A stretch of DNA of 64,000 nt from Warburgia ugandensis (lineage: Eukaryota; Streptophyta; Magnoliopsida; Canellales; Canellaceae). The position numbers and the translations under genes are program-made. The notes under the pieces are model-generated. The model saw only the letters and a list, made by a program, of their open reading frames with translations, made no database searches and was not told the origin of the DNA. The DNA lies in assembly GCA_035236585.1 (NCBI GenBank), contig CP141128.1:51697257-51761256 (forward strand), in the 5' to 3' direction. Below are positions 1 through 54,791 of this stretch, one piece after another (position 1 is the stretch's first letter; every line of letters starts with the position of its first letter).

Positions 1-918
1 TTCTTTTCTTTTGAGTGAATCTTATAGTGAGGCCCCTTTGTAATTTGCAATTTCAATTTGAATTTTAAAAGGTTTGTATATTATAGGGCAAGTGCGAGAT
101 AAGGTGGCCCATGCTTGATCTTTATAAAAAAAACTCCACTATAAGTATCCCTCACTCCTTTTATTTCCTATATTAGGGTTTGCATTTAGAATAGTCTTGC
201 ATTGTTTGGTAAAATAATTGCATATAGAAAGCATATATGATAATTGATGCATTTTTAAGGTTTTGCATTCGTATACTATTTTAATTGCATTCTAAGGGCA
301 TGTTTAATGCATTAAGGTGATATATATGCTGATTGACCTACCATGGAGTATGGAAATTAATTAGTAAGGGCACCCTACCCCCACAAGATCAAGGGTGGAT
401 TTCATCACCACTCCTTGGCCCACCTAGGATAATCACCTCAAGTGTGCAACCCCACCTTCCAAGTTAATTTAAAATCAATTAGAAGAGACCTCTAGGGCCA
501 TCACATGCTCGTAGGGCCCTCTTACTAAGACGCAATCTATTGTCACTCCAATGGCTCTTAAGCACTGTAGTTATAGTAGTATCTTAAAATCCAAGTGATT
601 TTTCCACACCTTCTTTTGATGTTTGTGGAGGTCTAAACACCTCCTTACATGAGGATTGTATTAACCACGTTGCGCAGAACCTAACTAGTAAGCAATAGTC
701 AAATCTGAAGGAGAGGAGGAGCGTTATATTAGTCTAATTTAAAAGCATTATCCCCGCACAAATTTAAGAATATCAAAATATTGCTACTTATTAGCCTCAA
801 GTATTATATTGCGCCTTTTGTTTGTGCATCATTCTAGGAAGTTAGGTTGCATCATGTAGGTTAGTTTTTCCTCTTAAAGAAAAAAAAAAAAAAAAAAACT
901 CAACTTTGTATAGAATGA
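1..918 (+). other. Element 1 internal leader (untranslated)
   Basis: Non-coding leader upstream of the gag-like ORF. It aligns colinearly with the reverse complement of about 7,860-6,900 in Element 2, including the stretch around the first 120 bases. It contains the conserved hairpin module at 628-669 and an adenine run at 879-898, which sits where Element 2 has a long GA/CT microsatellite. No ORF of substance is present. The primer binding site of this copy lies left of the window. Confidence 0.7.
628..669 (+). repeat. Conserved leader hairpin module, Element 1 copy
   Basis: The core is GGAGGT, loop CTAAAC, ACCTCC, a perfect six-pair stem with a six-base loop, followed by a conserved run through TTACATGAGG and TTAACCA. 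The same module occurs in Element 2 (7,201-7,243, minus strand) and in giant LTRs A (16,638-16,680), B (47,554-47,592) and C (51,766-51,807, minus strand), always in the sense orientation of its element. The function is unknown; an RNA structure or a protein-binding site are both possible. Confidence 0.7.
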
Positions 919-1479: not shown

Positions 1480-2384
1480 TGTTGATGTTTTCCGCAAGTG
1501 CACGAGCTATTGTAATATAGCTATGCAAATATAGGTCAATCCCACAAGGACTCACTTTAAATGTTGGAGTTTTACATAAAATTTAATTAATAAAAATAAA
1601 AATAATGAATATAACAGAAATAAACTAACAATAAAATAAAAATTCTCAATTTATTTAACTGCTGCAATTTACAGAATTTCTAAATCCAAGAAAACATAAG
1701 ATAAAACTAAACAAGCAGCCTTAGATATCATTACCCCTGGATAGGCAGAATAGGGATAAGGTAAAACCAGAATATTCAGGGACACATCTGTAAATAAAAT
1801 AGGGACTCAAACGGAATTAAAATGGGGATACAGACGTAATTAAAATGGGGACAGAGATGGAATTAATGAGATCATCCAAGGGCAGAATTGGAATTTTGCC
1901 TAATTTCTAGTTTTTAACAAAAACCATAGGAAAATCCAATGAGGAGAAAATTGGAGAGGGAGATGCAGAAGAAGGAAGAAGGGAGAAGAAGGAGGGAGGG
2001 AGGAGAAGAGAGGACAGGAAGGAAAGGAAAGGAGAAGTAGGAAGGAAACCCATTCCTTCCCCAGATCCGACTGGCAACGCAGAGAAACTAGAGAAGGGCG
2101 GTTGCCACCGGCGATGCTGGCCTGCGTTCTATCCAAATTAAGTGGGAGTTGAACGGCCAGTGGAGGGCTCTTCTAGAGAGATAAAAAATGACTCCCTTTC
2201 TGGGCGTCTTCTGGTTTAGGGCCGTCTCCGCCTAGCCGGTGATGAGTTGGGCTCCTGGTTTGGGCATGCTCTGGTTTTGGGTTCATGCCTGTAGAGGTGC
2301 GGCATGGCCAGTGGAAACAATGGAGAGCATAGGAGGAGATGACGACGCTAGGATCTAGTGATGATTTCAATCAATGGTGAACAT

Positions 2385-2515
<131 letters not shown>

Positions 2516-2753
2516 GGGCATGGTAGGGGTTGGTGCGATGATGGGGAAAAGAAACTTGGGAGTTTGTATGGTCCGGTTTTGGGCGTGGAGAAAGAACGAT
2601 AGATGGTGATAAGGAAAGGGAATTTGGAGACAACTTGAGGAGACTTCTACCAGTGCTGGAAAGGTGCATACAGGTCAAGTAGCCTGGCTTGTGCGGTAAT
2701 GGGGATGATGCGGTAAATTGGTAGAGCAAGAGAGGGAGAGTGAAAGAGAAGAA

Positions 2754-2898
<145 letters not shown>

Positions 2899-3572
2899 AG
2901 GTGTGATGGTGGGTGGAAAAAAAAAATAGAAGTGAAATGGTGCTTGAACAAAAACGAGAGAAGAAGGAGAAGGTGAAAACGTGAAGATGAAGATCATGAG
3001 GACAAGCAAGAAAGGTTGTTAATGTGAAAGATAGACGAATACACAAGAAAAACTCCAAAAACTTAAAAACTCCCAAGGAAGAAAACGTGAATGAGAAATA
3101 AAATAAGGAAACTTCAACTCTCCAAAAAAACACACTCCCCTCCACCTCCACAGTTCTCCTTTCGATAATAGTTTTCCCTTCCTTATTTTACTCTAACAAA
3201 CTCCTCTTCTTCCCATCTCTTTCAATTAGGACTCTTCCAATTAGGAATCCTCTTCCATTAGGAAACCTTCTTGCTCTTCACTAATCTGCACCGTTGATCC
3301 TTGAGAGATAATCTGTAACATTGATCCATAGCCATCCATGCCTCTTATAGTTAATCTGCAAAATAAAAGACTAAATTAAAATCATCTAAACTACACATTA
3401 ATCATCTAATAAACTCTAATGATCATCTAACCATTAATTTTGAGAAATTAAGGTTTGGATGGTCAATTTGAGCTAAATTTAAAATCAAGCTAAATTTTGC
3501 ACCTTTGAACGGTGAGATGATCTAATTGAATGCTAAACTAAGGGTCTTTTAGCCAAAATTAAACACTTAACA

Positions 3573-3584
3573 CACCCCCCAACC
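3573..3584 (-). other. Polypurine tract of Element 2
   Basis: In element orientation GGTTGGGGGGTG lies immediately before the 3' LTR start TGTTAAG. Element 1 has GGTTGAGGAGTG at the same place (12,846-12,857). This is the usual plus-strand priming site of LTR retrotransposons. Confidence 0.8.
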
Positions 3585-5330
3585 AGCATTTTGCAAATCC
3601 CGAGCAAAACATGCAGACAACTATTTTACACAAACCTGGTACAAGGTGCCACTTTCGTAAGTACTCACGATTGTATTTAGCACATGCAATAAGCCCTTGA
3701 ACTCCTAGGTTACCCCTAGTGGATGAGTTAGGCCTTGTGAGGGTTTACAGTGAATATACCCACAAAATTCAAAAAAATCGAGTCCCCTATTTTATCTCAG
3801 AGAAATCTCATTCATTAGCAATTTTACTAGTTTTTCACAACTTAATGAAGAGGATTTGACAATTTTACACACCATACACATATTAAAGACATTTTATTTG
3901 AGCTATTCCCTAGAGTGCTTATGTGTGTGTACAGCCACATAAATCTTGACTTCTAACTGGATATGCTTACATTCCATTGAAAATATGCCTTGACCTCAAA
4001 TCCTCACAACTATACACTCAAAAATAAAACTCTCAGATAAGGGGTTAAACATATTTCTCTCACTATGTGACCGAATCCAAGAAGTTGATGGTTCACATAA
4101 TTCTTTTAAATGCTCATGAGACAAATGAAAGTGATCCCTAAGAGTGGATGTTATCACCAAGAATATTATGGGTCTTTTACCTTAATTCTTTCTTTTTATC
4201 TCCTCTTTAAGGCTATGTCCACCTAAGATCAATAGGTCTTTACTTAGGATGAAATGTTGGCTTAGGACAGGTTTAAAAAAAAATTATCAAGATTTCAAAG
4301 GTTCAAAATTGAGTAGAAGTCTTCAATGAATATCTGCTAGGACAACTTTTCTTGTTGGTTTGTACTTAAAGTGAATTTCTCTTTCAAACTTTGGTCTTTC
4401 TTTTCTTTTCTCCTTTTTTTTCACTTTTCTTTTTCTTCTTTGGAAGAAAGACAACTAATTGTTCTCACTTCTTTGACTTTTTGTCCTATTTTTGAACTTT
4501 TTTACTCTACTCATTTTGAAGATGGGTAATGGTTATTTATTTTGGTTTATTCTGGGTTAAGGTGAATGGAGTTAAGAAAGAGAGAGGCTTAATAACAAGC
4601 TCAAAAGGCTAACTAGTGGTATACTATATTGAGTAGGCTTTATGTCTCTAGGCTGAGGAAGGATGGCCTATATCATTTCCTAGGTTTCCTAAAGCCTATC
4701 AGATTTAATAAAATTCTGGAATTAAAGCTATACTCCTCTTTATACTTGATGTTTAACCAAAACAAAGATAACAGGATCACACTAATGTATGTATACTGAA
4801 GAAAGTATGGAATTACTTATAACTCTCTAAAAGAAGATAGTCTCAAACTCTCACTAAGTTATAGGTCTCCACTGGTTTTTCTTAGGGTCTCTAAGTCATA
4901 CCTTTATATTAGTCTTAGTTATGTGCTGTGTATAAATGGTTTCCGAGAATTAACTTTCATAAAATGCTTCAACACATGCATGAAATGCAAAACTAATCAT
5001 ATGCATTCCCATTAAGTGGTGAAAACAGTATATTTACTAAATTCTAAACATCCAGTTCTCATCACTGTAAGGGAACTCTACTTTAAAAACTTTTCTTTTC
5101 TTTTTTCAAAAATTTTCATTTTTTTTTTAACTCAAGAAAATTCAAAATCTCTAGTGCATCTACACCCCCAAACATAAATGAAACATTGTCCATAATGTTT
5201 GAAAACATAGGATTCTATATGAAAGTGGAGTGATGTAGACTCTAAACCTTTGGGTTGCCTCCCAATAAGCGATAAGTTTAACGTCTTCAGTTAGACATTA
5301 CCTAACCTAACTTTCTAAAACTAGAGCTAA
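3585..5330 (-). other. Element 2 non-coding 3' internal region
   Basis: A 1.7 kb stretch between the end of the gag-like ORF and the polypurine tract, where an autonomous element would carry pol. I see no pol motif. It is colinear with 11,140-12,845 of Element 1 and with about 40,000-41,569 of Element 3, so it is a real shared part of the family rather than random filler. It contains a conserved small hairpin at 3,705-3,719. Confidence 0.7.
3705..3719 (-). repeat. Conserved CTAGG/CCTAG hairpin, Element 2 copy
   Basis: In element orientation this reads CTAGG-GGTAA-CCTAG. The same stem with loop GATAA is in Element 1 (12,713-12,727) and with loop GGCAA in Element 3 (40,118-40,132). In Elements 1 and 2 it lies about 120 bases before the polypurine tract. 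The function is unknown. Confidence 0.6.
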
Positions 5331-6887
5331 CTAGGTCAGCTTTATTTGTCCTAAGCCCAACCCTATAATGAAATGGTGAGATTTCTCATGCCACTTCAAA
5401 ATTTCACAGTAATCCATATATGGCCTCCACTTTGAAACTTTAGGTGGTGATATGAATATCATACAGTAGATGACCGCAATTGTGAAGGTAGTGGGACCAT
5501 ATTGATGATCCCCCATCTTCAATATTTCATGGTAGTCAATATAATTGCTCCACCTCAAAAAGTGAGGTGAGGGTAACACAATGATTACATGAACTACCGT
5601 GTATTTCCTTGGACCATATGGTGACAAATAGTCCTTGTCTTGACCAAATTGAGGGATAATAATGACCATTCTATTCAATTTATCTTTTGCCTCCATGTCC
5701 TTATCATTGTCCTGAACTAGGGTAATAACCTGACTCCGCCCTTCTCTAATAGGTTGTTCTTGTATTACTAGAGGCAGGGACAAGGTTTGGCTTAAACTCT
5801 GGTTATCTTCTAATGTGTACCCTAGAGTAGGTTGGTGCATATCAACTAACTCTGCTTCTACTTGTTTGATAAGCATAAGTACAGTAGCAATTGGGCCTAT
5901 ATTATCTGATGTTTGTTCAAATAAGGTTGATGGGTACCAATCAAGTACATCTTCTACATTGAAAGGCACAATCTAAATTTCATGCTTTATAAGAGGATCT
6001 ACTTTGGCTTGCCATCGAGAAGTGTCCATCAGAGGCATAGTATCCAACAACTCATGCACCTCCTCAATAGATGTGTCTTCATCAAAGTCATAAAAATAGG
6101 TAGGACACGCATCTAGAGGATTAGGGTTGGATTTTTCTAAAGCTTTATTTTCTTCATCAATGGGAGTCTCATCATTATTAGAATCAGGATATGGCTCAAG
6201 TATATCGAAGTTGGAGATTTCTAAGGATGGTTGTAGACTTTGTGGCTCATAAGGATCATAGGAAATTTCCATCCTAGTGTCAAGAATAAATGGCTCTATA
6301 TTCCCCCTAATTTGTTTCAATGTTTCCTCAAATTCCTCCCTCCCTTGGTTTTATTTCCTCAGTGAAATCCTCCATCATTTGTCTTATTTTCTTATTCCCT
6401 TATGCTATTATTTCACACACATGCTACATATTTTCTTCTAATAGTGGTTCCTCTCGTAGAGGAAATGACTCATAGAGTTGGTATTGTTGTGGCATTGGGG
6501 TATTGAAAAAGGACTGAGCAAGCTGAACACATAATGGTTGACCTTGATATTCTGAATAATCATGGCAGTACTGACCAGGGTGAGACCATTGTGGTTCTTT
6601 TTTATATTGGTAATCCTGAGACCATGATTGTTCATGATGCCTAGCACACCCATTAGAGCCTTGATAATTTGTCTCAGAATGAAAATTGATAGGATATGTG
6701 AATGCATTAGGTGCATCCACTGGCTCCTGATAGTATTCATTAAATGTGGAGCTTGATGGGGGTAAGGAAGGAGTGGAATAGGGATGCTTAGAATAGGTAT
6801 AGTCATTATGGTATTGAGGTTGTAGCCAACTTGCCTAAAAACTATTAGCCTAAGCAATTGACTTTCCATAAGATCTAACTTATCCAT
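5331..6887 (-). pseudogene. Element 2 gag-like ORF, broken
   Basis: Minus-strand coding remnant read in three main open stretches: 6,720-6,424 (Gln/Tyr/Pro-rich, with PQWSHPGQYCHDYSEYQGQP), 6,320-5,973 (acidic, with FYDFDEDTSIEEVHELLDT) and 5,969-5,331. Stops at the joins and a frameshift above 6,720 show it is not functional. The acidic part has the motif DE(D/E)TSI(D/E)EE repeated in the Element 1 copy, and the last part has two related units ending YIDYHEILK and YMDYCEILK. I recognise no zinc knuckle, protease or RT. It is probably the family's only protein, gag-like by position; its true role is open. Confidence 0.6.
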
Positions 6888-6906
6888 CTAGGCATCAAAT
6901 CTATCC

Positions 6907-6909
<3 letters not shown>

Positions 6910-6998
<89 letters not shown>
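6910..6998. repeat. (CT)n microsatellite in Element 2 leader
   Basis: About 89 bp of CT on the plus strand (GA in element sense), just upstream of the gag-like ORF. Element 1 has an adenine run at the same place. Confidence 0.97.
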
Positions 6999-7000
<2 letters not shown>

Positions 7001-7200
7001 AAAGATGAAATCTAACCTACATGATGCAACCTAACTTCCTAGAAAGATGCACAAACAAAGGGCACAATATAATCCTTAAGGCTAATAAGCAGCATATTGA
7101 TTTTCTTGAATTTGTGTGGGGACAATGCTTTTAATTAGCCTAATCTAATGCTCCTCTTCTTTAGATTTGATTATTGCTTACTAGTTAGGTTCTACACAAG

Positions 7201-7243
7201 GTGGTTAATACAACCCTCATGTAAGGAGGCATTTAGACCTCAC
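7201..7243 (-). repeat. Conserved leader hairpin module, Element 2 copy
   Basis: In element sense the core is GAGGT-CTAAAT-GCCTC, where the top T-G pair would be a U-G wobble in RNA. It lies in the leader between the primer binding site and the gag-like ORF, as in Element 1. Confidence 0.7.
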
Positions 7244-8150
7244 AAATGTCAACAGGAGGTGAGGGAAGAGCGAGGCTCTATTAGACAACCCTCAATAACC
7301 ACAGTGCTCAAAAGCCACTGGAGTGACAATAAATCTCGTCTTAGTAAGAGGGTCCTACGAGTATGTGATGGCCCTATATGTCTCTTCTAATTAATTTTAA
7401 TTTGAATTGAAGGGTAGGGTAGCGCACTTGAGGTGATTATCCTAAGTGGGCCAAGGAATGGTGATGAAATCCCATGATCTTATAGGGGTAGGGTGCCCTT
7501 ACTAATTAATTCCACACTCCATGGTAGTTCGATCAGCATATATATCACCTTAAAGCATTAACCGTGTCCTAAGATGCAATGAAAAGTAATAAACTAATTC
7601 AAAACCCTAAAAATGCAACAATTATAAAGGATGCTTCTATATGCAATTAAACTACTAACCAATGCAAAATTATTCTAAATGCAAACCCTAATCTAGAAAT
7701 TAAATGAGTGAGGAAACTTACAATGGTGTTTCTAATGAAGATCAAGTGTGGGCCACCTTATCCCACACTTGCCCTGTATTATACAACTCTTTAAAATGAA
7801 AATGGAAATTACAAATTACAAGGGTCCTCACTACAAGTTTCACTCAAAAGGAAAAAGAATAAAATAAAATCTTAATCTAGGAAAGCAAGGAAATTTCCAT
7901 GTTGATGAAGATTTTCTTGCCAATTTTCTCTACTTTCTTGTTTCCTTGGAAAAGAAAATGAGGAATAGGTACTAGTTTCAGGAAATTAGGTGGTTATGCA
8001 CTAAAAAAATTGAAAAATGCACCTAAAATTGCCTAAAATGTTGAAACTCTAATTTTTACACTTTTTTATTTTTTTTATTTTTTTCAAATTTTTTAATTTT
8101 TTGGAAATTTTGGATTTTTAATTAAATTTTATAAAAAATTGCTTTGCAAG

Positions 8151-8168
8151 TCCCCGGCAATGGCGCCA
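8151..8168 (-). other. Primer binding site, tRNA-Asp type, Element 2
   Basis: In element orientation TGGCGCCATTGCCGGGGA follows the 5' LTR end after a six-base spacer. It is complementary to the 3' end of plant tRNA-Asp as I recall it, apart from one mismatch (A for G at position 8). It fixes the minus orientation of the element and is a type of primer site seen in several plant Ty3/gypsy lineages. Confidence 0.8.
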
Positions 8169-8174
8169 AAAACT

Positions 8175-10031
8175 TGTTAATGTTTTTTGCAAGTGCACAG
8201 GTTATTGTAATATAGTTATGCAAATACGAGTCAATCCCATAGGGACTCTCTTTAAATGTTGGAGTTTTAGATAAAATTTAATTAATAAAAATAAAAATAA
8301 TGAATATAATAGAAATAAACTAACAATAAAATAAAAATTCTCAATTTATTTAACTGCTGCAATTTACAGAATTTCTAAATCCAAGAAAACATAAGATAAA
8401 ACTAAACAAGCAGCCTTAGATATCATTGTCCTTGGATAGGCATAATAGGGATAAGGTAAAACCAGAATATTCAGGGACACATCTGTAAATAAAATAGGGT
8501 CTCAGACAGAATTAAAATGGGGATACAGACGTAATTAAAATGAGGACAGAGATGGAATTAATGAGATCTTCCGAGGGCAGAATTGGAATTTTGCCTAATT
8601 TCTGGTTTTTAACAAAAACCATAGGAAAATCCAATGAGGAGAAAATTGGAGAGGGAGATGCAGAAGAAGGAAGAAGGGAGAAGAAGAAGAGGGAAAAGAA
8701 CGAGGGGAAGGAAAGGAGAAGTAGGAGGTCCCCGGATCTGACTGGCGATGCAGAGACACTGGAGAAGGGTGGTTGCCACCAACGATGCTAGCCAAAGTTC
8801 CATCCGAATTAGGTGGGCGTTGAACGGCCAGTGGAGGGCTCTTCAAGTGAGATAAAAAATGACGCCCTTTCTAAGCGTCATCTGGTTCAAGGCCGTCTCC
8901 ACCTGGCAGGTGATGAGTTGAGCTCCTGGTCTGGGCATGCTCCGGTTATGGGTTCGTGCCTATAGAGGTGTGGCTTGGCTGGTGGAGATGATGGGGAGCA
9001 GAGAAGGAGATGACGCTAGGATCTGGTGATGGTTTCAATCAATGGTGAAAGTGGGAGTGGGAGTGGGAGTGAGAGAGAGAAGGAGATTGAGAGAGAGAGG
9101 GAAAAGGGCGTGGTAGGGGTTGGTGCGATGATGAGGGGAAAAAACTTGGGAGTTTGTACAGTGTAGTTTTGGGAGTGGAGAAAGAACGATAGATGGTGAT
9201 AAGAAAAGGGAAGTTGGAGGCAACCTAAGGAGACTTCTACCAGTGCTGGAAAGGTGCAGACAGGTCGAGTAGCCTGGCCTGTCCGGTAATGGGGATGATG
9301 TGGTAAATTGGCAAAGCAAGAGAGGGAGAGTGAAAGAGAAGAACAAGAAAGAGAGAGATGGAAGGTGCAATGGAGGGTGGAAAAGAGAAACAAAAAAAAA
9401 TAGAAGTGAAATGGTGCTTGAACAACAACAAGAGAAGAAGGTGAAGGTGAGAACGTGAAGATGAAGCAAGAAAGGCTATTAATGTGAAAGATAGAGGAAT
9501 ACACAAGAAAAACTCCAAAAACTTAAAAACTCCCAAGGAAGAAAACGTGAATGAGAAACAAAACAAGGAAACTACAACTCTCTAAAAAAAAACACTCCCC
9601 TCCACCTCCATGGTTCTCCTTTTCATAATAGTTTTCCCTTCCTTATTTTACTCTAGCAAACTCCTCTTCTTCACATTTCTTTCAATTAGGACTCTTCCAA
9701 TTAGGAATCCTCTTCCATTAGGAAACCTTCTTGATCTTCACTAATCTGCACCATTGATCCTTGAGGGATAATCTATAACATTGATCCATAGCCATCCATA
9801 CCTCTTATAGTTAATCTGCTAAATAAAAGACTAAATTAAAATCATCTAAACCACACATTAATCATCTAATAAACTTTAATGATCGTCTAACTGTTAATTT
9901 TGAGAAATTAAGGTTTGGATGGTCAATTTGAGCTAAATTTAAAATCAAGGTAAATTTTACACTTTTGAACAGTTAGATGATCTATTGAATGCTAAACTAA
10001 GGGTCTTTTAGCCAAAATTAAACACTTAACA
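8175..10031 (-). repeat. Element 2 5' LTR
   Basis: The 1,857 bp partner of 1,480-3,572. It starts TGTTAATG on the plus strand next to the primer binding site and ends ACTTAACA before the CTAGC duplication. Apart from the microsatellites, the two LTRs differ by scattered substitutions and small indels, so the insertion is not brand new. Confidence 0.9.
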
Positions 10032-10036
10032 CTAGC

Positions 10037-12857: not shown

Positions 12858-14707
12858 TGTTAAGTATTTAATTCTGGCCAAAATACCCCTAGTTAATCAT
12901 TTAATTGGACCATCTAACTCATCAATTTGATGATTTTTGAGATAAAATATGAAATTTAGCTCAATTTGACCATCCAACTGTAAATTGTTAAAATCAAGAA
13001 TCAGATGATCATTAGAGCTTATCATGTGCTTAATGTATGATTTAGATGACTCTAATTTGATCTTTTATTATGTAGATTAACCAGAAGAGGAATGGATGGC
13101 TTAGATTAAATTTCAATGGTGCAAATTATCCTAAAGAGCACTGGATGGACTAGATCACTACAAAGATGGATAGGAGAGTTTTCTATAGGAAAATTGATCT
13201 CAATTGGGAATAATGGAGAAGATTTTATCAAAAGGGAAATAACATAGGAATGAGAAGGTGCAAAATAGAAGAAATCCCATGTTGGAGAGTCTTAACCATA
13301 GTGGAGACATGGATTTGAAAAAAGCGTAAATTTATATAAGAGGAAGATTCCTCTCTCTCTCCACCTCTCTTCTTCCCTCTTCTTCTCCTTCTCTCGTTCT
13401 CCCTCTTATCCCTCTTTTCCCCCTCTCAGCTATCTCTATCCCACACTCCCTCTCTTTCACTGTTCTCTAACTCGATCTCCCACTTTTGCTCTGTCTTTTC
13501 TCCTCCTCTCCCAAGTTCTCCCATCTCACTTCCTCTCTTGGCTCTCTCTTAGCTATAAGGAAGACCCACACATCCCCCTCTGACCTATCTTCTCTCTCAT
13601 GCTCCATCTCTCCCACTCCTATCTCTACCCCTGTCAAAAATCACCTCTCCTTCCTCTTTCCCTCATTCTCTCTTTACTCTACCTGTCGGTTTCTCCCTCT
13701 TCTCTCTTTTGTTCCCTTTCTCTCCCTCTCTCCCATCTACTTTCTCCCATTCTAACAAACACGTGTTACCTAGATAGCATGATAGCACCTCTATCTTTCA
13801 CTGCCCCTCTCCTCTGCTCCTCTCCTTTCTTTCCATCCTACCAGCACCGGCCAAGAGCTCCTTCTCTCCTACCTGACACAGCACAGACCGTCATCTTCTT
13901 CAATGCCAATCACCACACCGACTACTGCTTCTGTTTTTTATTCATTGTCCCAAATTCCAGAAGTTGGACAATGCCTAGATATCCTTCATTGTGCCAGATG
14001 ATGCCCCAGGATCCTCTGTTCTAGCATCGGCCCGACATAGCATCTGTTCTAGCACAACACGATGCCGTCCTCACTTCCCCACCCCAGCTACCAAGTTACC
14101 TTCACTAGCCACCGTCGATCATTGTAATGACCCTGAATTTTTGTAACTTATTAAGGCAAATTAATAAAGTTTGAATTTTTAGAAATTCTGGGCTGGAATA
14201 TTAGGTTATTGAAAATTTTCTTTTTATGAAAATTATATCATGAATTAAAACATATATATTATGGATGTACTTGGAAAACTGATCTAAACAACATTAAGTA
14301 CGTTCAATTCTGAGTTAAAATGAACATTCCTTAATTTTCTCCATTTAGGGGCAAAATGGTAATTTTACCAATATTCCATATCTAAGAAATAAGACCTCAA
14401 TATTCATGAAGTACTTAGAAATACGATTCCAACGCCACTAAGTACGCTCGATTCCGAGTTCGGACAAATAATGCCTATTTTTCTCCAATTTTAGAGTTAT
14501 AAGGGCAAAAACGTCTTTTTACATAAAAGTGGGGCCCACAAAGTGGGCCAACGTTCTAGAAGCAACAATAATTGCTCAGTGCATTATTGCTGGTAGTGGA
14601 GAATGTAGTGGAGATTGTAGTGGAGAATGGAGAATGCACTTGTAATAAAAAATTCTAAAGTAATAAAATATCTTATTAAAAGAAATGATAAAAAATTCAA
14701 ATTTGGC

Positions 14708-14714
14708 TATAAAT
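14708..14714 (+). promoter_or_regulatory. Putative TATA box of solo LTR A
   Basis: TATAAAT, about 585 bp into the LTR. Counterparts lie at 45,367-45,373 (B) and 53,700-53,706 (C, minus strand). Conservation among copies supports a promoter role; it has not been shown. Confidence 0.5.
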
Positions 14715-16637
14715 ATGTCCCAAAATTTTCCAAAAATTTTCACAACCTTAACCACGAAATTTCCAAATCTTCCTTGGAGTTTCAGCCCCAAATTCTCATT
14801 CATCCCTCCCCAATCTCTATTTTTCTTATTTCTCTCTCCTCTTTCTAAGTGGAACAAGAGACCTAAATTCAATTAGGCACTCCGTTCCAGGAAGAATCTG
14901 ATCAATTCCATCGTCCATAACCTCCTACACTAAATTATATACAAAAGCCCCAAATCAATTTCAAGATCCAACGGTTCCAACAACAGAAAACTACAAAAAG
15001 GTAGACAATCGGGCTATATTATCATCAACCGGTAATTCTCTCAAATTGAGCATCAAATATATGTTTTTTCTCCAATCAGGTAGGTGGAACTACTTCCCAT
15101 TCATATTTATTATGTTTTAGTGTAATTTTTATTTTTCTGTAATTTAATTTGAATGAAAAATGGTAAAAATAAAGTAAATACCAGCCCCTTCAATTTATGG
15201 TGATAGAGAGCTCAGATGGAAATTCTGAGTTTTCCAATCAATCCAGAAGGGTCAAAAACCCTTAGGATACAATTTTCAAGAAAATCTAACAAGGTTTGGA
15301 CCCTCAATTGAGAGAGATTAATTCTGATGGGCCCATATCAAATCTGGACCCTAGGAACGGCTGAAAACTTCAATTTAAGATTGTGGAGTCATATGAACTC
15401 CAAATTGAGATCAGAAAGAAGCTATGGAAAGCTTGTAATGTATAGTTTCTAATGAAGTCATAATATTTCTAAAAATTATATCTGTATTTTTCTGTATTTT
15501 TTTTTAATAAGTGTCCAATTTCTAAGATCTTCAAGATCTAAGGTGATCAGATCTTGGAAATTTATTTTAGTGATGATATAATAATGTAATAAAGTAATAT
15601 CTATGGTTAATTTGGATAGATCTTGGATAAAATAGGGGATCTACCCTTTATGGTAGAAAAACCTTAAAATAAAAAAATAAAAAAATTACAAAGGGACCCA
15701 CTTGATCAATGAGATCAAGTATGATCAGATCCTTGGGATGGATTAAAGGGATGATATTATGATGGAATCCAATTAGATCATGGATGAAATGTGACAAAAT
15801 CAAGTGGATATGATTTTTGGATCTTAATGGATTAAAAGCCCTAAAGGTAATTAAAACCCTTAATCTAAAGGAAAACACCTAAGATCTAATGGTTGGATCA
15901 TATTTAAAGGTTTATAATAATCTTAATAAAATTAGTTTAAATTGTCTTTTATTGGATATAGAAGTGTAAATGTGATTTATGTTCTAAGTTAGAAAGCATG
16001 ATAGTGTAATCTTTAAATTTTAGTATGATATGCCCTGAACGAGTAATTTGTTAGTAGATTTGATTATCTTAGGATCATGTTAGTGTAAATTAGGATTTAA
16101 ACATGATTTCATTACGATAAAAGATGTGTTTCATAACTTAGGATCATGTTAGTTTTTTTTTCACTAGCTTAAGTTACATTCATAGGAAGAATGTATATAG
16201 TTGTTAAACTTATATTTGATTTATGCTTTCAAGTTGATGAATTACTTATTGTCAAAATTTATTCAATTGTTAAGTAATTGTTAAGATATAAGGAGCATAA
16301 ATCACCAAAAATGTAAACTAATGAAATATAGAAATTCATGGACAACTAAGATGAATGAATGATTGTGACTTAATAAGGGCTATAGTTAGTAGGACAATAT
16401 AAGGAATGATTTATCATTTCCTTGGCCCAAAATAGGAAAATAATGAACATCCATGGATGACATTGTGCATATCCATGGAAATTAATTAAAATCAATTAGA
16501 GAAGGGACTTAAGGTAAAGAGCTCATAGGAACCTTGTCAAAGGTTGAGCTAGTACCACTCAGGTGGACTCGAACATTGTGGTTATAGGGGGTATACAAGA
16601 GCCAAGTGCTTTTCCCTCACCTCCCATTGACGTAAGA

Positions 16638-16680
16638 GAGGTCTAAACGCCTCCTTACATGAGGGTTGTATTAACCACTT
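16638..16680 (+). repeat. Conserved hairpin module, LTR A copy
   Basis: GAGGT-CTAAAC-GCCTC with the same downstream run as Element 1. Weaker similarity to the Element 1 leader extends over about 350 bp around it (16,370-16,740 against 360-720). Confidence 0.7.
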
Positions 16681-19600
16681 TTTGAGCAGACTTTAACTGG
16701 TAAGTACTAGTCATCCTGAAATAAGGAGGAGTTGTCTAGTGATAGGAAGAAATAAATTATCTTCAACCAAGTAAGACACTAACTGGTTGAATAATAATAA
16801 GAACATAAATAGATAGCAAATTATCTAACCCTAATAAAAATAGTAAGTGAGATAAGGATGATCAAACAAGATGAGATCTTGTATGATCAAAAACATTAAG
16901 GAAAAAGAAGCATCTATGTAAATTAGATTGTTATGTATGATATAGATAGTATTTGTATAGATGATATTAAACCCATGGATATAGGATATTCAAGGAAGAA
17001 AGATTCAGATCATCCTACATAAGGATGATCAAAAGACCATGTAGTATGCACCCTTAATTAGAAAAATGACATTATACATATGATTTGACAGATATATGTT
17101 GATCGAGACTATGGCAGATTTCAAGGAGTAAGAATACCTTATTGAGGTAGGTGGATTATTACGAATGCCTTTACATGAAGATACATGTCTAATACATGAT
17201 CTTATGTTTTGAAGTATTGACATGTATGATACCAATATATTAAGGTAAATACCTCAAATTGAAATATGATCCAACCAAATGATGAGGAAAATAAGTATTA
17301 AATAAGTTGAGAATTGAGAACAATCCTAAGTGAATAGGAAAGTAGAAAATATTCCAGCCCTAGTTAAACAGACAGATAGTCTGATATGTATAAGTATTAT
17401 TTTACATACAAGCTTGGAGGCTTGTGGTTTTGTTTTAAACAGGCATAAGCCTGGGGATGCTATGCTAAGAGAGTTAAGAGGGTTTGGCCACCCACTCTCT
17501 GAAACTTGATGATGTTGAATACCAAGCCTAAGAAAGGCTAAAAGTCGGGTGGGGCAATTATGGGAAGGCCACCACTGTGACAGCCATGGTCCTCCCATAT
17601 GGACATGGATATTGTAATTTCCGTTGAGAATGGTATAAGTGGATTATTGAACAGCTTATCCGGCCGCATTTGACGGATCGAGGCAAGCATAGTAGTCCTT
17701 GATTATTTTGCATTATGATGCATATGAAATTGGCATAGTGAAATGCCTTAAGGGATGGCATGATGAAATGCCGTGTAATTGTATATTACCAATATTTTTC
17801 CCAAGAAGGGAAAATCCCAAAGATAGTAACTGGCTGAAATACAAATCTCCTATAATGAAAGGAGTTGATCAGTTTTGTATGGAAATGATTATTATTTTTA
17901 CAATTTTAACAAATTTGTTCTTATATACTATGTATGTATAAAGGTGAACACAAATGATAAGGAAATGAGATGTTTATATAAATAATAGTGGTCTGTGAAT
18001 GTGTTTATGATAGAATGAATTATGGGATAGTTGAATATTGAGATTTTACTGTCAATAACTTACATTCTTATCCCCTACCAAGCATAGCTTGCTGAGATAT
18101 TGTAAATGTTCAAATGTTTACAATATCTCAGATACAGAGAAGGAGACTTAGGAGCTCAAGACTTGAAGAACTAGTGAAGAATAAGTAAAAAGGGTATATT
18201 CCTTGAAACATTGTATAGAGAGCATGTATTGTATTTAGAACTTTGTAATTTGACATGTGTATTTGGACAAGTATTGTAAGGATACAATGGGTTGTGTACT
18301 GTGAACCACTGGATGGATCCTGGAAGTTTAATAAAATCATATTCCTTCAATGGAATTTTATTTTGTACACAAATTGTACTTATGTTATGTATGAAGTGGT
18401 GACTTGGGTTTTCAAAACAAGTTTTAAAATAAAAGAATTTTCGTTGCTTTGTTTTGCAAAAAAAAAAAATTTACTAAGGGGACGCCCTTGTCTTTAAAAA
18501 AAATATATTATAAAATGTGTTTAAAAAAACCCGGGTCGTCATAGATCAACCCGAACACTAGAACTCCGCACTGCTTTCTCCCTTCGTCCCTATCTGAGAT
18601 CAACCCAACACCCAAACTGCATAAGCCCTTCTTTCTCTCATTTATTCTCCTCTATCACTAGCTAATCTTCACTAGCCATCTCTGCAGATCACAAGAGAAT
18701 TGGATTTTTCTCCATTTCTCCATTCTCCCCTTCTTTCCTTCTCCGCCATCTCCTCTGTCTCTATCTTCCCCTCCTTTGGCATCTTCTTCCCTACCTATTT
18801 CTATTTTTCGTTTAATCTGTTTTTTCCCTTAATTCCGATTCTACCCATCATTATTCTGACTTAATTCCATTTGAGTCCTCTTTTTAATACCCTCTATGTC
18901 CCTTTTCTATTCTAATTTTATTTTGTCTATGTTTTGCTTATCTAGGAGCTGCCCAATCTAAGCTAGATCAATTAAGGCTTAACCTAATCAATGAGTTAGC
19001 CTTAATCACAAAGATTTCTCTTTTTCTCCTCTACTTTAGATCTGATGTTCAATTAACTTTTAAATTTCATTATTAAGACATCCTTGAGCTTCATTAGCAT
19101 CTCTGATCTTTCATCTAAATTTCAAAAAGTAATCTAAACCATCCAAATCCCAAAATCACCATTTACTCCAAATCTTTAAGATTTTGAGAAATCTGACTAA
19201 TCCAACTAGCAGATCTTTAATCAAGGACATGTTGAAGATGTTGATGAAGGCTGATCAACTCCAATAATACCATATTTGAATAAATTGACCGTGAATAAGC
19301 TAAGGAAGTAAATTTTTTATGTTATTCTTTATTTTCTTTTTTTTGAACTAAAAATTATGTAACTTTTGGTAGTTGAATAGATCTGAACCTTTATTCCATT
19401 TCTAATAATTTTTTATTATATATTTCTAATTTTTTGCTTTAAATTTTATTAAAACTCCAAATTCTTAAAGCGAGTCTCTGTGGGATTGACTTGTACTTGC
19501 ATATGCTATACTATAATAGGTCGTGCACTTGCCGAAAACTCAATAGTAAAGACTAGGCGATAGGTGACAGTGTGCACATGCTTGTACCAGTTTCATCTGC

Positions 19601-44482: not shown

Positions 44483-45990
44483 CCTGACTCCCTAGGTGAA
44501 AGGGGAAATAGGGGGAGGAGGTGGCCGGTGATGGTTGTAACAAGGTCAGCACCTGAGCCTGAACTGAAGGGGAAGAAGGGTCCTTGCTCGCTGGCCCTCC
44601 CATGGCCTGGCTAAGCCAATGACAGGGAAAAGCAAGGGGGAAAAAGGGAGGTCGATGCTAACGCGTGGCTAGCCTGTGCGTGTTGGCATCATAGACTGAC
44701 TGTGCTACAAAGAACCCTGATCGGGGTGGGAAAAAGGAAAGGGAGATGGGGGATCTAGCCATAAAAAGGAAAGGAGTGGGACACAGGGTGTAATAACCCC
44801 AATTTTAGTTATTGATTGAGAAAATCAATAAAATTTGAGTTTCATAAATTTCGAACTGAAATATTAGGGTTATTTAGAATATACTTCTTATAAAAAGTAT
44901 AATTAATGAATAAGACATGTACAATTGAAATTAAACTTATCAAACCCTTCAAAATGACTATAAGCATGACAAATTCTGAATTCGGATGAAAAATCCTTAA
45001 TTTTCTTCATTTTTGGACAAAAGGGTAAAATAGTAATTTTACCCAAAATAAAAATCTGAGACATCAAAATTTAGAATGTGCTGAGAAATAAAAATCTAAC
45101 GATACTAAGTACGCTCAATTCTAAGATTATTGGAATAAACCCTAATTTTATATATATAAAGGGCAAAATGGTCTTTTTACACCATGTGGGGCCCACAAGG
45201 GACTCAAAAACTAATCCTATGGCCAGCCCACGTGAAATCATGGGTCAAAACATACCAGCTGGTCTTGGGGAAGAAAGTGGAGAATGGGAGAATCTAATGC
45301 TAAATTAATAATAAAAAATTTAACCATCATCATTACACATCATCATGAAAGAAGACCCAAAATGCCTATAAATACAACCCCAAAAATCTTCCAAAAATGT
45401 TCATAAAATTCCCACAAAATTTTCCTCACTTTCCCTGGAAATTTAGACCTAGATCCATCCCCAAAAACCCAAAACTCTCAAAAAGTCTCCCTCTTTTCAT
45501 TTTCTCTCTCTAGATTGGAACAAGAGACCTAAATTCAATTAGGCACTCTGTTCCAGATCCAATATCACAAATGCCATAGTTAAAAACTTCCTACCATACC
45601 TTAGCTACAAAACCCCCAAAGAAATTTTGAGATCCAATGGTTCAAACAACGGGAATCGCAAGAAAGGTGGATCTTTGGCTATATTATCATCAAAATGGGT
45701 ATTCTTTTAAATTGGACCATATAACCTACATTTTTCTCCAATCAGGTAGGTGAAACTACTTCCTGGACATTGTTATTATTGTTTGATGAAATTTATACTT
45801 TACTGTAATTTAATTGGGTGAAAAATGATAAAAAAATAAAGTAAATAACAGAACCTTCAATTCAGGACGATTGAGGGCTCATATGAAAAATTTGACCTTC
45901 CCAATCGATCCATAAGGGTCCAAAACCCCTAGTGTAAAATTTTCACTAAATTTCATGGATTTTTGGGCCCTCAATTGATAAGGGATTGAT

Positions 45991-46209
45991 TGCACGGTCC
46001 AAACAAACTATCCAATCTCCCGATCGGACCAAGTCCCATGGACGGCATGCGAGAAGCCGCACGCGTGCCCATGCAACGCATGCGACGTCATCCCGCGCAC
46101 ATCCATGGACATCGCTGGTGGGAGCGTCTGTCTCTCGTCTACGACGAACACGCGCGACGAACCGAGCGTTCTGCCCGGCTCATTTCCACCCGACTAATCT
46201 CGGCTGTCC
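45991..46209. other. CpG-rich insert unique to solo LTR B
   Basis: A and C run straight from the equivalent of ..CAATTGA..GATT to TTCYGATGGGCCC, while B has about 219 bp of GC-rich, CpG-dense sequence in between. Its origin is not recognised. The ORFs that cross it are short and overlapping, with no recognisable product. Confidence 0.65.
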
Positions 46210-47553
46210 ATTCCGATGGGCCCAGATCAAATCTAGGCCCTAGGAATGGACTATGAACTTCCAAATCTATTTCTAGAGTCATATGAACTCCAAATTGAGA
46301 TCGAAAAAAGGCTATGGAAAGCTTACAACCTCTATTTTCTTATGAAATAATAAAATAGAGAAAATATGTAATAAAACTTTCTGTATTTAGGAAACAAGTT
46401 TCCAATTGCTAAGATCTTCAAGATCTGAGATGATCAGATCTTGTAAATATGTTTTAATAATGATATAATATTAAAATTGAGTTATATAAATGGTTTATTT
46501 GGACATATATAAGAGATATTAAGGAATTTACCCACTATGGTGGAAAAACCCTAAAAATTTCAAAGGGACCCACTTGATCAATAAGATCAAGTGTGATCAG
46601 ATCCTTGGGATGGATGGAGCGGATGTTGATATGATGAAATCCAAGGAGATCATGGATGGATTATGACAAAAACAAATCAATATGATCTTTGTACCTTAAT
46701 AAAGAAAACCCCTTAAATATAGCTAAAACCCTTAATAAAAAGGAAAATATCTAAGATCTAATGGTTAGATCATAAGTAAAAGTCTCTAATAAACTTAATA
46801 TAATTAATTTACATTTATTTTATTTGATAAAAGAATTGTAAATGTGATTTATGTTATAAATTAGGAAGCATGATAGTGTAATTCTTGAATTTTACATGCT
46901 ATGCTCTAAATGTTATTAGATTGTTAAAATAGGCTAGAAATTTAATTATCTTAGGACCAAGTTAGGTTGAATTTGAGATTATAGCATGATTCCATGAGAT
47001 TACTAGTAAAATTTCATACGTTACATAACTTAGGATCATGCTAGTTTAAGTATAGTTTTATTCCATTAGGTTAAGTTACATTCATAGGGAGCATGTTAGT
47101 ATAAATGTTTGTTAAATTTATATTGGAGTCATGCTTTAAAGTTTATGATTTAATTGTTGTCAAATTTTATTAGTAGATTCAAATGTTAAGTAGTTGTTGA
47201 GATATAATGAGCATAAGTCACCAAAATGTAATCTAATTGGAAATTAGAGTTTCATGAACACATAAGAGGAAGGAATAACTTTGACTTAACATTTGTAAGG
47301 GCTATAGTTAGTAGGACAATATAAGGATTATCAAATCCTTAGCCCAAACTAGGAGAATAATAAACCCCATGAATGACATTGTAAATGTTCATCGGCTTAA
47401 TTAAAATCTATTAGAAAGAGTACTTAGGGTCAACATGCTTATAGGAACCTTATGAAATGTTGAGCTATGGTCACTCTAGTGAATGTTGAACATAGTGGTT
47501 AAGGGGGTTATCTAATAGAGTCTCGCTCTTCCCCTACCTTCTGTTGACGTTTT

Positions 47554-47592
47554 GAGGTCTAAACGCCTCCTTACATGAGGATTGAAGTAACC
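47554..47592 (+). repeat. Conserved hairpin module, LTR B copy
   Basis: GAGGT-CTAAAC-GCCTC followed by CTTACATGAGG, identical in its core to the LTR A copy. Confidence 0.7.
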
Positions 47593-50500
47593 TCTTTGTG
47601 TTCACCCATTCGGCTAGTAAGCCTTAGACAATTGAAAATAAGAGGAGCAGACTAGACTTAGGCTTAAATAAGTTACCTTCAACCAGCAAAATATTAACTG
47701 GTTGAATAATAATAGTAAGAGCATAAAAGGTTAGTAAATTACCTAACCCTAATAAAAACTGTAAGTAAGATAAGGATGATCAAACAAGATTCATTAGATC
47801 TTGGATGATCAAGAACAAGAACAATGAGAATATTATATTGTACTTAGTATGCATGCTTATTAGTATGCATGTGATAGTTCATTAGATTAGATAATCCAAA
47901 CCCTTGCTCAAAGATGATTCAAGGAAGAAAAACAAGATCATCCTCCTTAGGGATGATCCAATAACTGAACTTAGATCAAAGAAGAACTAGATGATAAAAG
48001 ATCTAGGACCTTGATCTTTATCAACATGTGTAGATTGTCAATCAATGGATCTATGAAAGATCAAGATCAAGGAGATTGACACACAAAGACTTAGAGATAG
48101 AAAAATACTTAGATATGAATGATCTAAAGATCATTCTAAACATTAGATCTAGTGATTAATAGGATTGTTCATAATTTATATATTGACAATATGTATGGAT
48201 GTACAGATTACATACATCGGTCAGGATCATGGAAGATTTGCGAAAAGGGTTCACTCCTTGAAGGTAGGAGGATTTGATGAATGAATTTACATGGGATGAA
48301 CATGATTGAACCCATGACCTTATGTTGACAAGAGTAATTGTTAATACTTGTATTAAATCCCCTGAAAACCTTATGATCCAACCAAACACTTATAAGATGG
48401 TTAAGGACTAGACTATAAGTGAATAGGGAACTAGAAGATATTTCAGCCCTAAGTAAACAGACAGATGGTCTGATATATATGAAATCTATTTTACATAAAA
48501 GCTTGGAGGCTTGTGAGTTTGCTTTAATAAGCATAAGCCTAGGGGGATGCTATGCTAGAGGAGTTATAAGGTTTTGGCCACCCGCTCCTTGAAATTTGAT
48601 GATACCTCGCTCTATGAGAGGCTAAAAGTCGGGTGGGGCAATTATGGGAAGGCCACCATTGTGAAAGTCCTATCCCCCCATATGGGCAGTGACATAATAT
48701 TTTCCACCGTGGTATCAGTGGTGAACAGGGCAATTATCCGTACGCGCTAGTACGGATCAGACTACAGCACGGTAGCCCTTTTGATTATTTTGCACTATGA
48801 TGCATATGAGAATAGGCATAATGAAATGCCTTATGTTTTAGCATAATGAAATGCTAGGTAATTGTATATTATCAATATTTCCCAAGAAGGGAAATTCCCA
48901 GTGTAAGATTAGCTGAAATATTGAATTCTCATATTGGAGAGAATTGATCAGCTTAGTTGGGAATGATATTTGACTACTTTCATAAATTTAACTGATTTAC
49001 CCATGTATAGTATGTATATATATGGATGTACATAACTTACAAAGTAAAGGGTAGAGACATGAACATGTTTAGGGATAATGGGATTATGAAGTATTGGAAT
49101 TACATTGTCAATTATTATGCTTTTTGAATCCCCTACCAAGCATTGCTTGCTAAGATATTATAAATGTTGCAATATCTCAAATACAGGGAAGGAGAGTTAG
49201 GAGCTCAAGACGATAGAAGATTTGAAGAGAATAATCTTCAAGGTATACCCTTGAAGACATGTATTTAGCTTTGTTTGAGAGTGTTATATTGTAATGAGAA
49301 TTTCATTGTATGGTGAGCTTTGAGTTTGGATTATGTAATTTGGACAAGTATTGTAATGGATTTGGTTGTACTGTAAACCACTGGATGGATTCTGAAATTT
49401 AATAAAAGTATATTCGTTCAATGGAATTTTATCTTGTTCAAAATTCTACTTATGTTATGTATGAAGTGATGACTTGGGTTTTACAAAACAAGCTCTAAAG
49501 AAAAGAATTTATGCTGCTTTGTTTTGCGAATTTTTTTTACACTATTAAGGGCCCTGCCTTTCAAAATACATTACAAAACATGTTACAAAAACCTGCGTCG
49601 TCACACCGGGGAGGTGATCGAGTCTTTGCTAGTCACTGGTGAACAACACTAGGGCGAAAAAACCAAGTGCGTGGCCTGAAGGGAAACCTGATCTAGGTTC
49701 TTGCCAACACTAGAGATGGGAACGACTGCTTGTTGGTGAAACTCGCTCTGGGTTATCTATCAATGCTGGAAAAAGGGAGGAAAACAGAGGAGGAGAAGTC
49801 ATCAGAGAATCCTAATATGGGTTTCTTTTTATCACCGAAAAAAGGGGAAATTCCAGGGAGGGGAACAGTTTTTGAAAAACCTAATAGGGGGGCTGCCTAC
49901 TGGTGTGGCGACCCGGGTTTTTATAACACATTTTATAATACATTTTGTAAAGATAGGGCCCTTAGAGTAAATTTTTTTTGCAAACCAAAGCAGCAGAAAT
50001 TCTTTTCTTTAGAATTTTTTTTGTAAAACATAAGTCACCACCTCATACATAACATAAGTAGAATTTTGTATAAGATAAAATTCCATTTGAAGGAATATTC
50101 TTTTATTAAACTTCAGGATCCATCCAGTGGTTCACAGTACACAACCCATTGTATCCTTACAATACTTGTCCAAATATACAATCCAAATTACAAAGTTCAA
50201 AACAATACATGTTCTAATACAATGTTTCAAGGGATATACCTTGATTACTTATTCTTCAATTGTTCTTCAAGTCTTGAGCTCCTAAGTCTCCTTCTCTGTA
50301 TCTGAGATATTGTAAACATTCGAACATTTACAATATCTCAGCAAGTTATGTTTGGTAGGGGATAAGAATGTAAGTTATTGACAGTATAATCTCAATATTC
50401 AAGTATCCCATAATTCGTTCTATCATAAACACATTCATTAATAACTATTAGTTATAAGGACATCTCATTTCCTTGTCATTTGTGTTCACCTTTATACATA

Positions 50501-51765
50501 CATATTGTATAAGGACAAATCCATTAAAAATGTAAAAATAATCAAGAATCATTTCTATACAAAGCTGATCAATTCCTTTCATTATAAGAGATTTCTATCT
50601 CAGCTAGTTACTATACAGGGAATTTCCCTTCTTGGGAAAAATATTGGTAATATACAATTACATGGCATTTCATCATGCCATCCTTTAAGGCATTTCACTA
50701 TGCCAATTTCATATGCATCATAATGCAAAATAATCAAGGACTACTATGCTTGCAGTCTAATCCGTATAGCGTGCCCGGATAACTGTTCAATAATCCACTT
50801 ATACCATTCTCAGTGGAAATTACAATATCCATGTCCATATGGGAGGACCATGGCTGTCACAGTGGTGGCCTTCCCATAAATGCCCCACCCGACTTTTAGC
50901 CTTTCTTAGGCTTGGTATTCAATATCATCAAGTTTCAGAGAGTGGGTGGCCAAACCCTCTTAACTCTCCTAGCATAGCATCCCCAGGCCTATGCCTGTTT
51001 AAAACAAAACCACAAGCCTTCAAGCTTGTATGTAAAATAATACTTATACATATCAGACTATCTGTCTGTTTATCTAGGGCTGGAATATTTTTGACTTTCC
51101 TATTCACTTAGGGTTGTTCTCAATTCTCAACTTAACCATTTAATACTTATTTTCCTCATCATTTGGTTGGATCATATTTCAATTTGAGGTATTTAGCTTA
51201 ATATATTGGTATCATACATGTTAATACTTCAAAACATAAGATCATGTATTAGACATGTATCTTCATGTAAAGGCATTCTTAATAATCCACCTACCTCAAT
51301 AAGGTATTCTTACTCCTTGAAATCTGCCATAGTCTCGATCAACATATATCTGTCAAATCATATGTATAATGTCATTTTTCTAATCAAGGGTACATACTAC
51401 ATGGTCTTTTGATCATCCTTATGTAGGATGATCTGAATCTTTCTTCCTTGAATATCATATATCAATGGGTTTCATATCATCTATACAAATACTATTTATA
51501 TCATACATAACAATCTAATTTACATTGATGTTTCTTTTTTCCTTATTGTTTTTGATCATACAAGATCTCATCTTGTTTGATAATCCTTATCTCACTTACT
51601 ATTTTTTATTAGGGTTAGATAATTTGCTATCTTTTTATGTTCTTATTATTATTCAACCAGTTAGTGTCTTACTTGGTTGAAGATAATTTATTTCTTCCTA
51701 TCACTAGACAACTCCTCCTTATTTCAGGATGACTAGTACTTACCAGTTAAAGTCTGCTCAAAAAG

Positions 51766-51807
51766 TGGTTAATACAACCCTCATGTAAGGAGGCGTTTAG
51801 ACCTCTC
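51766..51807 (-). repeat. Conserved hairpin module, LTR C copy
   Basis: The minus-strand counterpart of the LTR A module, with core GAGGT-CTAAAC-GCCTC in sense. Confidence 0.7.
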
Positions 51808-52447
51808 CTACATCAATGGGAGGTGAGGGAAAAGCACTTGGCTCTTGTATACCCCCTATAACCATAATGTTCAGAGTCCACTGGAGTGGTACTAGCTCAA
51901 CCTTTGACAAGGTTCCTATGAGCTCTTTACCTTAAGTCCCTTCTCTAATTGATTTTAATTAATTTCCATGGATATGCACAATGTCATCCATGGATGTTCA
52001 TTATTTTCCTACTTTGGGCCAAGGAAATGATAAATCATTCCTTATATTGTCCTACTAACTATAGCCCTTATTAAGTCAAAATCATTCATTCATCTTAGTT
52101 GTCCATGAATTTCTATATTTCATTAGTTTACATTTTTGGTGATTTATGCTCCTTATATCTTAACAATTGAATAAAATTTGACAATAAGTAAATCATCAAC
52201 TTGAAAGCATAAATCAAATATAAGTTTAACAACCATATACTAACATTCTTCCTATGAATGTAACTTAAGCTAGTGAAATAAAACTAACATGATCCTGAGT
52301 TATGAAACACATCTTCTATCATAATGAAATCATGTTTAAATCCTAATTTACACTAACATGATCCTAAGATAATCAAATCTACTAACAAATTATTCATTTA
52401 GGGCATATTATACTAAAATTTAAAGATTACACTATCATGCTTTCTAA

Positions 52448-54776: not shown

Positions 54777-54791
54777 TTCTTCCCTCCTTAT
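54777..54791 (-). other. Polypurine tract of the gypsy element
   Basis: In sense ATAAGGAGGGAAGAA lies directly before the LTR start TGTAATGACCC. It follows a stretch reading GATGAAATTCC, the arrangement usual at the 3' end of plant chromovirus internal regions. Confidence 0.75.

Follow-up and report, generated by a model that had tools for sequence, protein, structure and literature searches.

A conserved 27-nt core in a non-coding, presumed leader block common to two Ty3/gypsy-type retroelement lineages of Warburgia ugandensis

Our analysis of a 64,000-nucleotide stretch of the Warburgia ugandensis genome (hereafter, the window) indicates that two kinds of plant retroelement probably share a non-coding block through past exchange, with a core inside that block probably serving some job in RNA. 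The first kind is represented by Elements 1 and 2, and the second by three solo giant LTRs, A, B and C; both have a homologous block of about 300 nt, in which the core is the most strongly conserved segment. We propose, with moderate confidence, a model in which this non-coding block passed by recombination, long ago, between two Ty3/gypsy-type lineages, namely the family of Elements 1 and 2 together with a pol-bearing relative (tRNA-Asp-type primer sites) and the giant-LTR families (initiator-Met-type primer sites). Purifying selection would then have kept a core of 27 nt, or up to about 38 nt, almost free of change, with the core most likely acting in cis as an RNA signal from within the presumed 5′ leader RNA, upstream of gag in both lineages.

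The starting point was a sequence-only reading of the window, which had described five near-identical copies of a hairpin module, all in the sense strand of their element. The copies are real: GAGGTCTAAAYRCCTCCTTACATGAGG occurs exactly five times in the window (Table 1), as opposed to 0 times in 100 dinucleotide shuffles, and all five do lie in element sense. A covariance model of the region, which had been suggested as a check, recovered the same five copies when run on the window, and none further at E 0.01. Across the genome searched (1.12 Gb in 14 contigs), GAGGTCTAAAYRCCTCCTTACATGAGG has 17,555 matches at up to two mismatches (8,953 + 8,602), and a reversed GAGGTCTAAAYRCCTCCTTACATGAGG pattern used as a control has none under the same threshold. 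A scan of the window with Rfam 15 returned no match at the gathering score, and hence no known structured RNA family, and the core has no exact match in IMG/VR.

Table 1. Coordinates, in window positions, of the retroelements, homologous blocks, cores and H1 hairpins
Feature	Position	Strand	Basis or remark
Element 2, complete	1480..10031	-	ends by eye; LTR alignment
Element 2, 5′ LTR	10031-8175	-	
Element 2, primer site	~8174-8150	-	
Element 2, 3′ LTR	3572-1480	-	
Element 2, target duplication CTAGC	1475-1479 and 10032-10036		
Giant LTR A, solo	14122..18543	+	duplication GATCA, counting an additional terminal T
Giant LTR B, solo	44789..49605	+	duplication CAGGG/CCGGG, one mismatch
Giant LTR C, solo	49904..54279	-	duplication CCAGT
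Homologous leader block, Element 1	405..725, approximate ends	+	BLAST, alignment
Homologous leader block, Element 2	7137..7466, approximate ends	-	BLAST, alignment
Homologous block, giant LTR A	16411..16735, approximate ends	+	BLAST, alignment
Homologous block, giant LTR B	47330..47664, approximate ends	+	BLAST, alignment
Homologous block, giant LTR C	51705..52035, approximate ends	-	BLAST, alignment
27-nt core, leader of Element 1	628..654	+	exact match
27-nt core, leader of Element 2	7215..7241	-	exact match
27-nt core, giant LTR A (LTR position 2517)	16638..16664	+	exact match
27-nt core, giant LTR B (LTR position 2766)	47554..47580	+	exact match
27-nt core, giant LTR C	51779..51805	-	exact match
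H1, CAAGT loop, AAAATC/GATTTT stem (Element 1)	586..602	+	alignment, pattern classes
H1, CTC-loop form (Element 2)	7267..7279	-	alignment, pattern classes
H1, CAAGT loop, AAGAGC/GCTTTT stem (giant LTR A)	16597..16613	+	alignment, pattern classes
H1, CTC-loop form (giant LTR B)	47517..47529	+	alignment, pattern classes
H1, CAAGT-loop form (giant LTR C)	51830..51846	-	alignment, pattern classes
Putative TATA box CTATAAAT, giant LTR A (LTR position 586), upstream of core	14707..14714	+	function predicted

Element 2 is nested inside Element 1, and giant LTR A splits the 3′ LTR of Element 1. The 3′ LTR of Element 2 contains long GA repeats (2387-2509 and 2761-2894) whose counterparts in the 5′ LTR (8175-10031) are short. 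Giant LTR C sits about 500 nt inside the 3′ LTR of a decayed gypsy-type element on the minus strand (54776-64000), which has a protease piece at 59082-59294 (RVP_2, 2.5e-05) and an LTR start, TGTAATGACCC, that follows a purine tract and resembles the giant-LTR start. The window also holds an imperfect, MITE-like inverted repeat of about 205 nt and 75% identity (25380-25584). Giant LTRs A and B have other identical stretches at 14850-14882 (33 nt) and 17535-17574 (40 nt), the runs ending at positions 761 and 3453 of LTR A; neither stretch has a BLAST match in Elements 1/2.

The two kinds of element differ in most features by which lineages are recognized. Among 12 giant LTRs compared for a 5-bp target duplication, eight have a perfect one, that of A is perfect with an extra T, that of B matches in 4/5 letters, locus L024 has none, and L016 is a 3′ LTR. 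The giant-LTR primer site (TGGTATCAGAGC type) reads TTGGTATCAGAGC in L069 and L151 and is altered to TTGGTATTAGAGT in L070; we take TTGGTATCAGAGC to be complementary to tRNA-Met of the initiator type. A pattern combining the giant-type LTR end with this primer site has 6,776 genome matches at up to two mismatches, and a G-rich tract precedes the 3′ LTR in these elements. They carry a Ty3-type gag (L151, PF03732 at 5.4e-17 plus a zf-CCHC zinc knuckle at 1.2e-4; L070, PF03732 at 1.6e-10), and no recognizable pol frame was found among the open frames of the internal regions of L069, L070 and L151, small pieces lying outside the Pfam scan. The primer site of Element 2 is TTTTGGCGCCATTGCCGGGGAC, with similar sites in L011, L020 and L025, and is presumably of the tRNA-Asp type. 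L011 has its LTR end, primer site and leader in common with Elements 1/2 and carries gag (1.1e-22), RVT_1 (1.9e-21) and RNase H (4.5e-38), matches to gag, RT or RNase H being absent from the frames of Element 2 itself. The Gags of the two lineages are alignable over 63 aa only, at 25% identity and E 0.008, and a BLAST comparison of the Element 2 LTR with the giant LTRs gave no match. According to the available text of one paper, tRNA-Met primers serve most chromoviruses and never non-chromoviruses (PMC6317226). Because the primer sites fit this rule, the giant-LTR elements are likely to be Tekay/Del-like chromoviruses and Elements 1/2 Athila/Tat-like non-chromoviruses. The earlier suggestion that Elements 1/2 are a non-autonomous parasite of the giant-LTR family loses its footing here, given the pol-bearing relative L011 and the different primer sites and Gags, and it is further weakened by the three giant-LTR internal regions, themselves devoid of a recognizable pol frame.

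Two sets of genomic copies were collected. The first comprises 20 loci (L009-L028) picked by hand from 100 exact matches listed, with about 5 kb on each side, and is therefore biased toward the motif; in all 20 the core belongs to one or the other lineage and is in sense, with three loci being Element 1/2-like leaders (L011, L025, L028) and 17 giant-LTR-like sequence. Within this set, L010, L018, L019, L023, L026 and L027 represent further giant-LTR families that can be aligned with A and B only from about mid-LTR onward, starting near B 2435-2495 (A 2186 in L026), just upstream of the block. L019 has the block twice within 3 kb in opposite orientation (4828-4973, minus; 7673-7817, plus), apparently in two LTR copies, inverted relative to each other, that belong to a third giant-LTR family. 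The second set was sampled through flanking sequence independently of the core, requiring an exact flanking 19-mer or 27-mer, anchors that occur 11,821 times (giant type) and 705 times (Element 1/2 type, or E-type) in the genome; it consists of 60 giant-type and 60 E-type copies which, with the five window copies, make 125. The core is in sense in 114/125 of these and antisense in none. The remaining 11 have no core within 7 substitutions and were excluded from pair counts; one of them, L054, has a one-base deletion and matched the core in a separate search, and another deletion copy, L031, was retained out of register and contributes three cells. The sense-only orientation claimed for the module thus holds. 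Its use as evidence of function does not, because collinear homologous blocks lie in sense by descent and orientation is therefore uninformative.

The module had been described as some 42 nt shared by elements that are otherwise hardly alignable. The sharing is confirmed, but the length is not: BLAST between Elements 1/2 and the giant LTRs aligned 65-273 nt at 74-85% identity (E 4e-12 to 5e-36), and by alignment the homologous block extends over about 300 nt; the elements are hardly alignable only outside it. Within the alignment, identity between E-type and giant-type copies, taken over 27 columns at a time, is highest at position 628 (0.855), close to the within-lineage values there (0.87 and 0.86); among the windows printed for regions outside the core it ranges from 0.39 to 0.74. 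Across four subfamilies (4, 15, 17 and 19 copies, the groups also used for the discordant sites below), 25 of the 27 core columns are invariant, and the next separate window has 19. The module is thus common to two different Ty3/gypsy-type lineages, in the presumed leader RNA of both, and conserved beyond its surroundings. Within the giant LTRs themselves, other pieces are conserved better than the core; A and B have 17 identical runs of at least 18 nt, of which the core is one and two reach 40 nt. It is rather the piece that the giant LTRs have in common with Elements 1/2.

Plain shared ancestry by recombination, with a core conserved by chance or recent spread and not by function, could in principle produce such a pattern. 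Retroelements are described as recombining across families in the accessible portion of PMC2410132, and the other long identical runs between the A and B LTRs are in keeping with this explanation. We nonetheless regard it as very unlikely: the core is nearly undiverged between the lineages when most flanking windows are only 40-70% identical, and 25 invariant columns were reached in just 27 of 20,000 column permutations, a test that ignores the clustering of conserved columns and in which one subfamily has four members only.

Our results do not support the hairpin proposed within the core, a GAGGT/RCCTC stem, as the selected feature. Among the 114 copies, 12 changes at pairs 1-4 of the stem preserve pairing, two of these being double changes, and 25 disrupt it; the counts are 11, two and 23 when the out-of-register L031 is left out. 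Of the two double changes, one belongs to L030, a copy that has decayed badly. Bases 7-10 of the loop show the same degree of fixation as the stem. Folding of single sequences gives the stem for three of the five window copies, namely A, B and C but neither of Elements 1 and 2, and an extended GTAAG/CTTAC stem is seen only when A and C, the A-type copies, are folded. Fold stability was not clearly stronger than that of shuffles, either for the five core copies (z -2.1 to +0.3) or for whole blocks (z -0.13 for Element 1, -2.20 for A and -1.55 for B). The closing pair, which varies between U-A and U-G and had been read as kept pairing, falls on a CpG, and its variation mainly reflects CpG decay. 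Variation in the core clusters at positions 11-12 and, among E-type copies, at 23-24, both CpG-type sites. The closing-pair dinucleotide among the first 100 zero-mismatch matches listed is CG in 57, TG in 33, CA in 7, and TA, AA and AG in one each, under a search pattern whose second place was restricted to A or G. The search for covariation therefore had a divided outcome. The proposed stem is mostly broken, and a weak signal is left when an outer helix added by RNAalifold is included. In the 60-copy alignment used (the first 65 copies minus five with no recognizable core), the covariation energy is small (-0.24 of -6.01); both-sided changes occur in three pairs (reached in 3/500 shuffles) and nine cells (1/500), and the covariation score was reached by 39/500 shuffles. 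We thus rejected this hairpin as the main feature, with its weak residual covariation signal noted.

A second, small hairpin, which we call H1, lies 25-42 nt upstream of the core and occurs in forms that cut across the two lineages. The A-type (AAGAGC/GCTTTT) and E1-type (AAAATC/GATTTT) subfamilies both have the loop CAAGT, and the B-type and E2-type subfamilies have AGAGC/GCTCT with the loop CTC. Eight sites are discordant with lineage, in that E1-type agrees with A-type and E2-type with B-type; seven of these fall at 591-600, in H1. When the full alignment is counted, with its gaps and unrelated flanks, 184 sites separate the lineages, and three support the third grouping. Since the H1 forms cut across lineages, at least one later exchange is suggested, and the simplest reading, which is suggestive, would be that H1 was swapped between the lineages after the subfamilies split. 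The discordance may reflect one or two events, and ancestral polymorphism is possible. In the CAAGT group, one pair is double-changed with pairing kept in 11 of 31 distinct rows (shuffles average 3.8 cells, and 0/500 reach 11), from 35 CAAGT-loop rows after L063, L071, L100 and L148, which belong to neither loop class, were dropped. The number of pairs with a both-sided change is one, as it is in 499/500 shuffles. This conservation of pairing is only suggestive because the signal is close to a single subfamily-level event on the tree. The innermost pair is lost to C-A in 9/22 giant-type and 6/35 E-type rows of the CTC form; the classes were defined by patterns touching the inner pairs, and 22 of the 114 rows are unclassified.

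The distribution of H1 raises the question of whether the core acts in packaging or dimerization, with the RNAs of both lineages entering the same particles and H1 being exchanged by template switching. We view such a signal as unlikely, even though both lineages have the block ahead of gag and share forms of H1, and conserved packaging and dimerization signals are reported for the gag-less BARE2 in the available text of PMC3735527. The Gags are hardly alike, the primer sites differ, and the core would also occur in the 3′ LTR part of the giant-LTR RNA. A stronger version, in which the two Ty3/gypsy-type lineages were repeatedly co-packaged and swapped leader hairpins by template switching, and the core is a shared entry signal for mixed particles, appears to us decidedly unlikely. 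Instead, we favor a host factor of the export, splicing or translation machinery as the presumptive reader of the core, because the Gags and primers differ while the core is the same.

An action at the RNA level is suggested by the position of the core, since a presumed leader position in both lineages makes a cis-acting RNA signal the most likely role. In Elements 1/2 the core sits between the primer site and the coding frames. In the giant LTRs it should lie inside the transcribed repeat region, given that CTATAAAT lies upstream (in LTR B at LTR position 578) and late AATAAA signals lie downstream (A 4209 and 4307; B 4613). AATAAA is also found upstream of the core (8/12 in A and 12/14 in B), and an RNA end ahead of the core is thus possible. 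A candidate splice donor, GTAAG, occurs about 33 nt downstream of the core in 46/58 giant-type and 41/56 E-type copies, with between-lineage identity in its window of 0.58-0.60, no better than that of the block.

Control at the level of DNA is a rival that we consider somewhat unlikely. Here the core together with an adjoining TTGACG would act as an enhancer or downstream promoter site in LTR and leader, and transcription of a shorter RNA that is translated would begin, as it does in barley BARE, from a second TATA-like sequence, ATATAAGG, which the giant LTRs have about 240 nt upstream. TTGACG, which we take to contain a bZIP-like TGACG, is found immediately ahead of the core in the majority sequences of E1-type, E2-type and A-type copies. 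ATATAAGG, exact in 10/17 giant-type loci, ends a stretch of 40 nt over which A and B are identical. BARE itself is described, in the part of PMC3735527 consulted, as having two TATA boxes with different RNA fates. However, TTGACG is intact in only 25/58 giant-type and 22/56 E-type copies, although much of this loss is CpG decay of dead copies. Moreover, about 900 nt separate the E-type block from the LTR upstream of it, and an upstream hairpin that keeps its pairing would be superfluous for a DNA site. An upstream open reading frame starting at an ATG within the core (CTTACATGAGG) is hardly credible as the reason for its conservation. The ATG is present in 5/5 window copies and intact in 51/58 giant-type copies, but it is kept in only 33/56 E-type copies, with T changed to C in 20, apparently as a subfamily; on this count we rejected the frame for the E-type.

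Several elements of our model have precedents, described here as they appear in the available portions of the papers cited. Recombination between retroelement families is already known (PMC2410132), as are conserved non-coding motifs in retroelements (PMC2829016). In the recombinant Athila lineages of Arabidopsis, as in our case, distant families exchange parts and the recombinants persist, but that exchange is within Athila and involves LTR, gag and env, whereas here a non-coding block is found in elements with different primer sites (PMC2410132). Sireviruses likewise have short, highly conserved motifs in otherwise divergent plant LTR retrotransposons; theirs are repeated boxes and junction motifs within one Ty1/copia genus, in contrast to a single core in two Ty3/gypsy-type lineages (PMC2829016). 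Non-autonomous elements retain the cis signals of their partner in BARE1/BARE2 (PMC3735527) and in Cereba/Quinta, the latter paired by LTRs, integrase, primer site and polypurine tract (PMC11302176). In the elements studied here, unlike Cereba/Quinta, the primer site and Gag differ and the leader block alone is common (PMC11302176). The RTE and MTE, which are cis-acting export elements in the RNA of LTR elements, and the CAR motifs are of the same size class, CARs being 160-285 nt with a short motif, and are read by host machinery, a likeness drawn from their description (PMC12786077). A search of the literature for four core strings as printed sequence found none, and one on shared non-coding regions returned no paper, wider listings being judged by title and abstract opening. 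A non-coding leader block with a constrained core, spanning lineages with different primer sites, looks like a new variant of these known phenomena.

In the text available to us, the presence of CAR-like motifs in plant LTR elements is called unclear and RNA export is said not to have been studied directly in plants (PMC12786077), and little is said to be known of packaged RNA outside BARE (PMC3735527). The 17,555 near-exact copies in one genome offer a large natural sample for studies of decay and selection. If the core is a functional leader signal in both lineages, it would provide a concrete sequence with which to test RNA export, translation and packaging of plant retroelements. If our model is correct, it would also mean that non-coding signals, besides genes, are traded between distant retroelement lineages.
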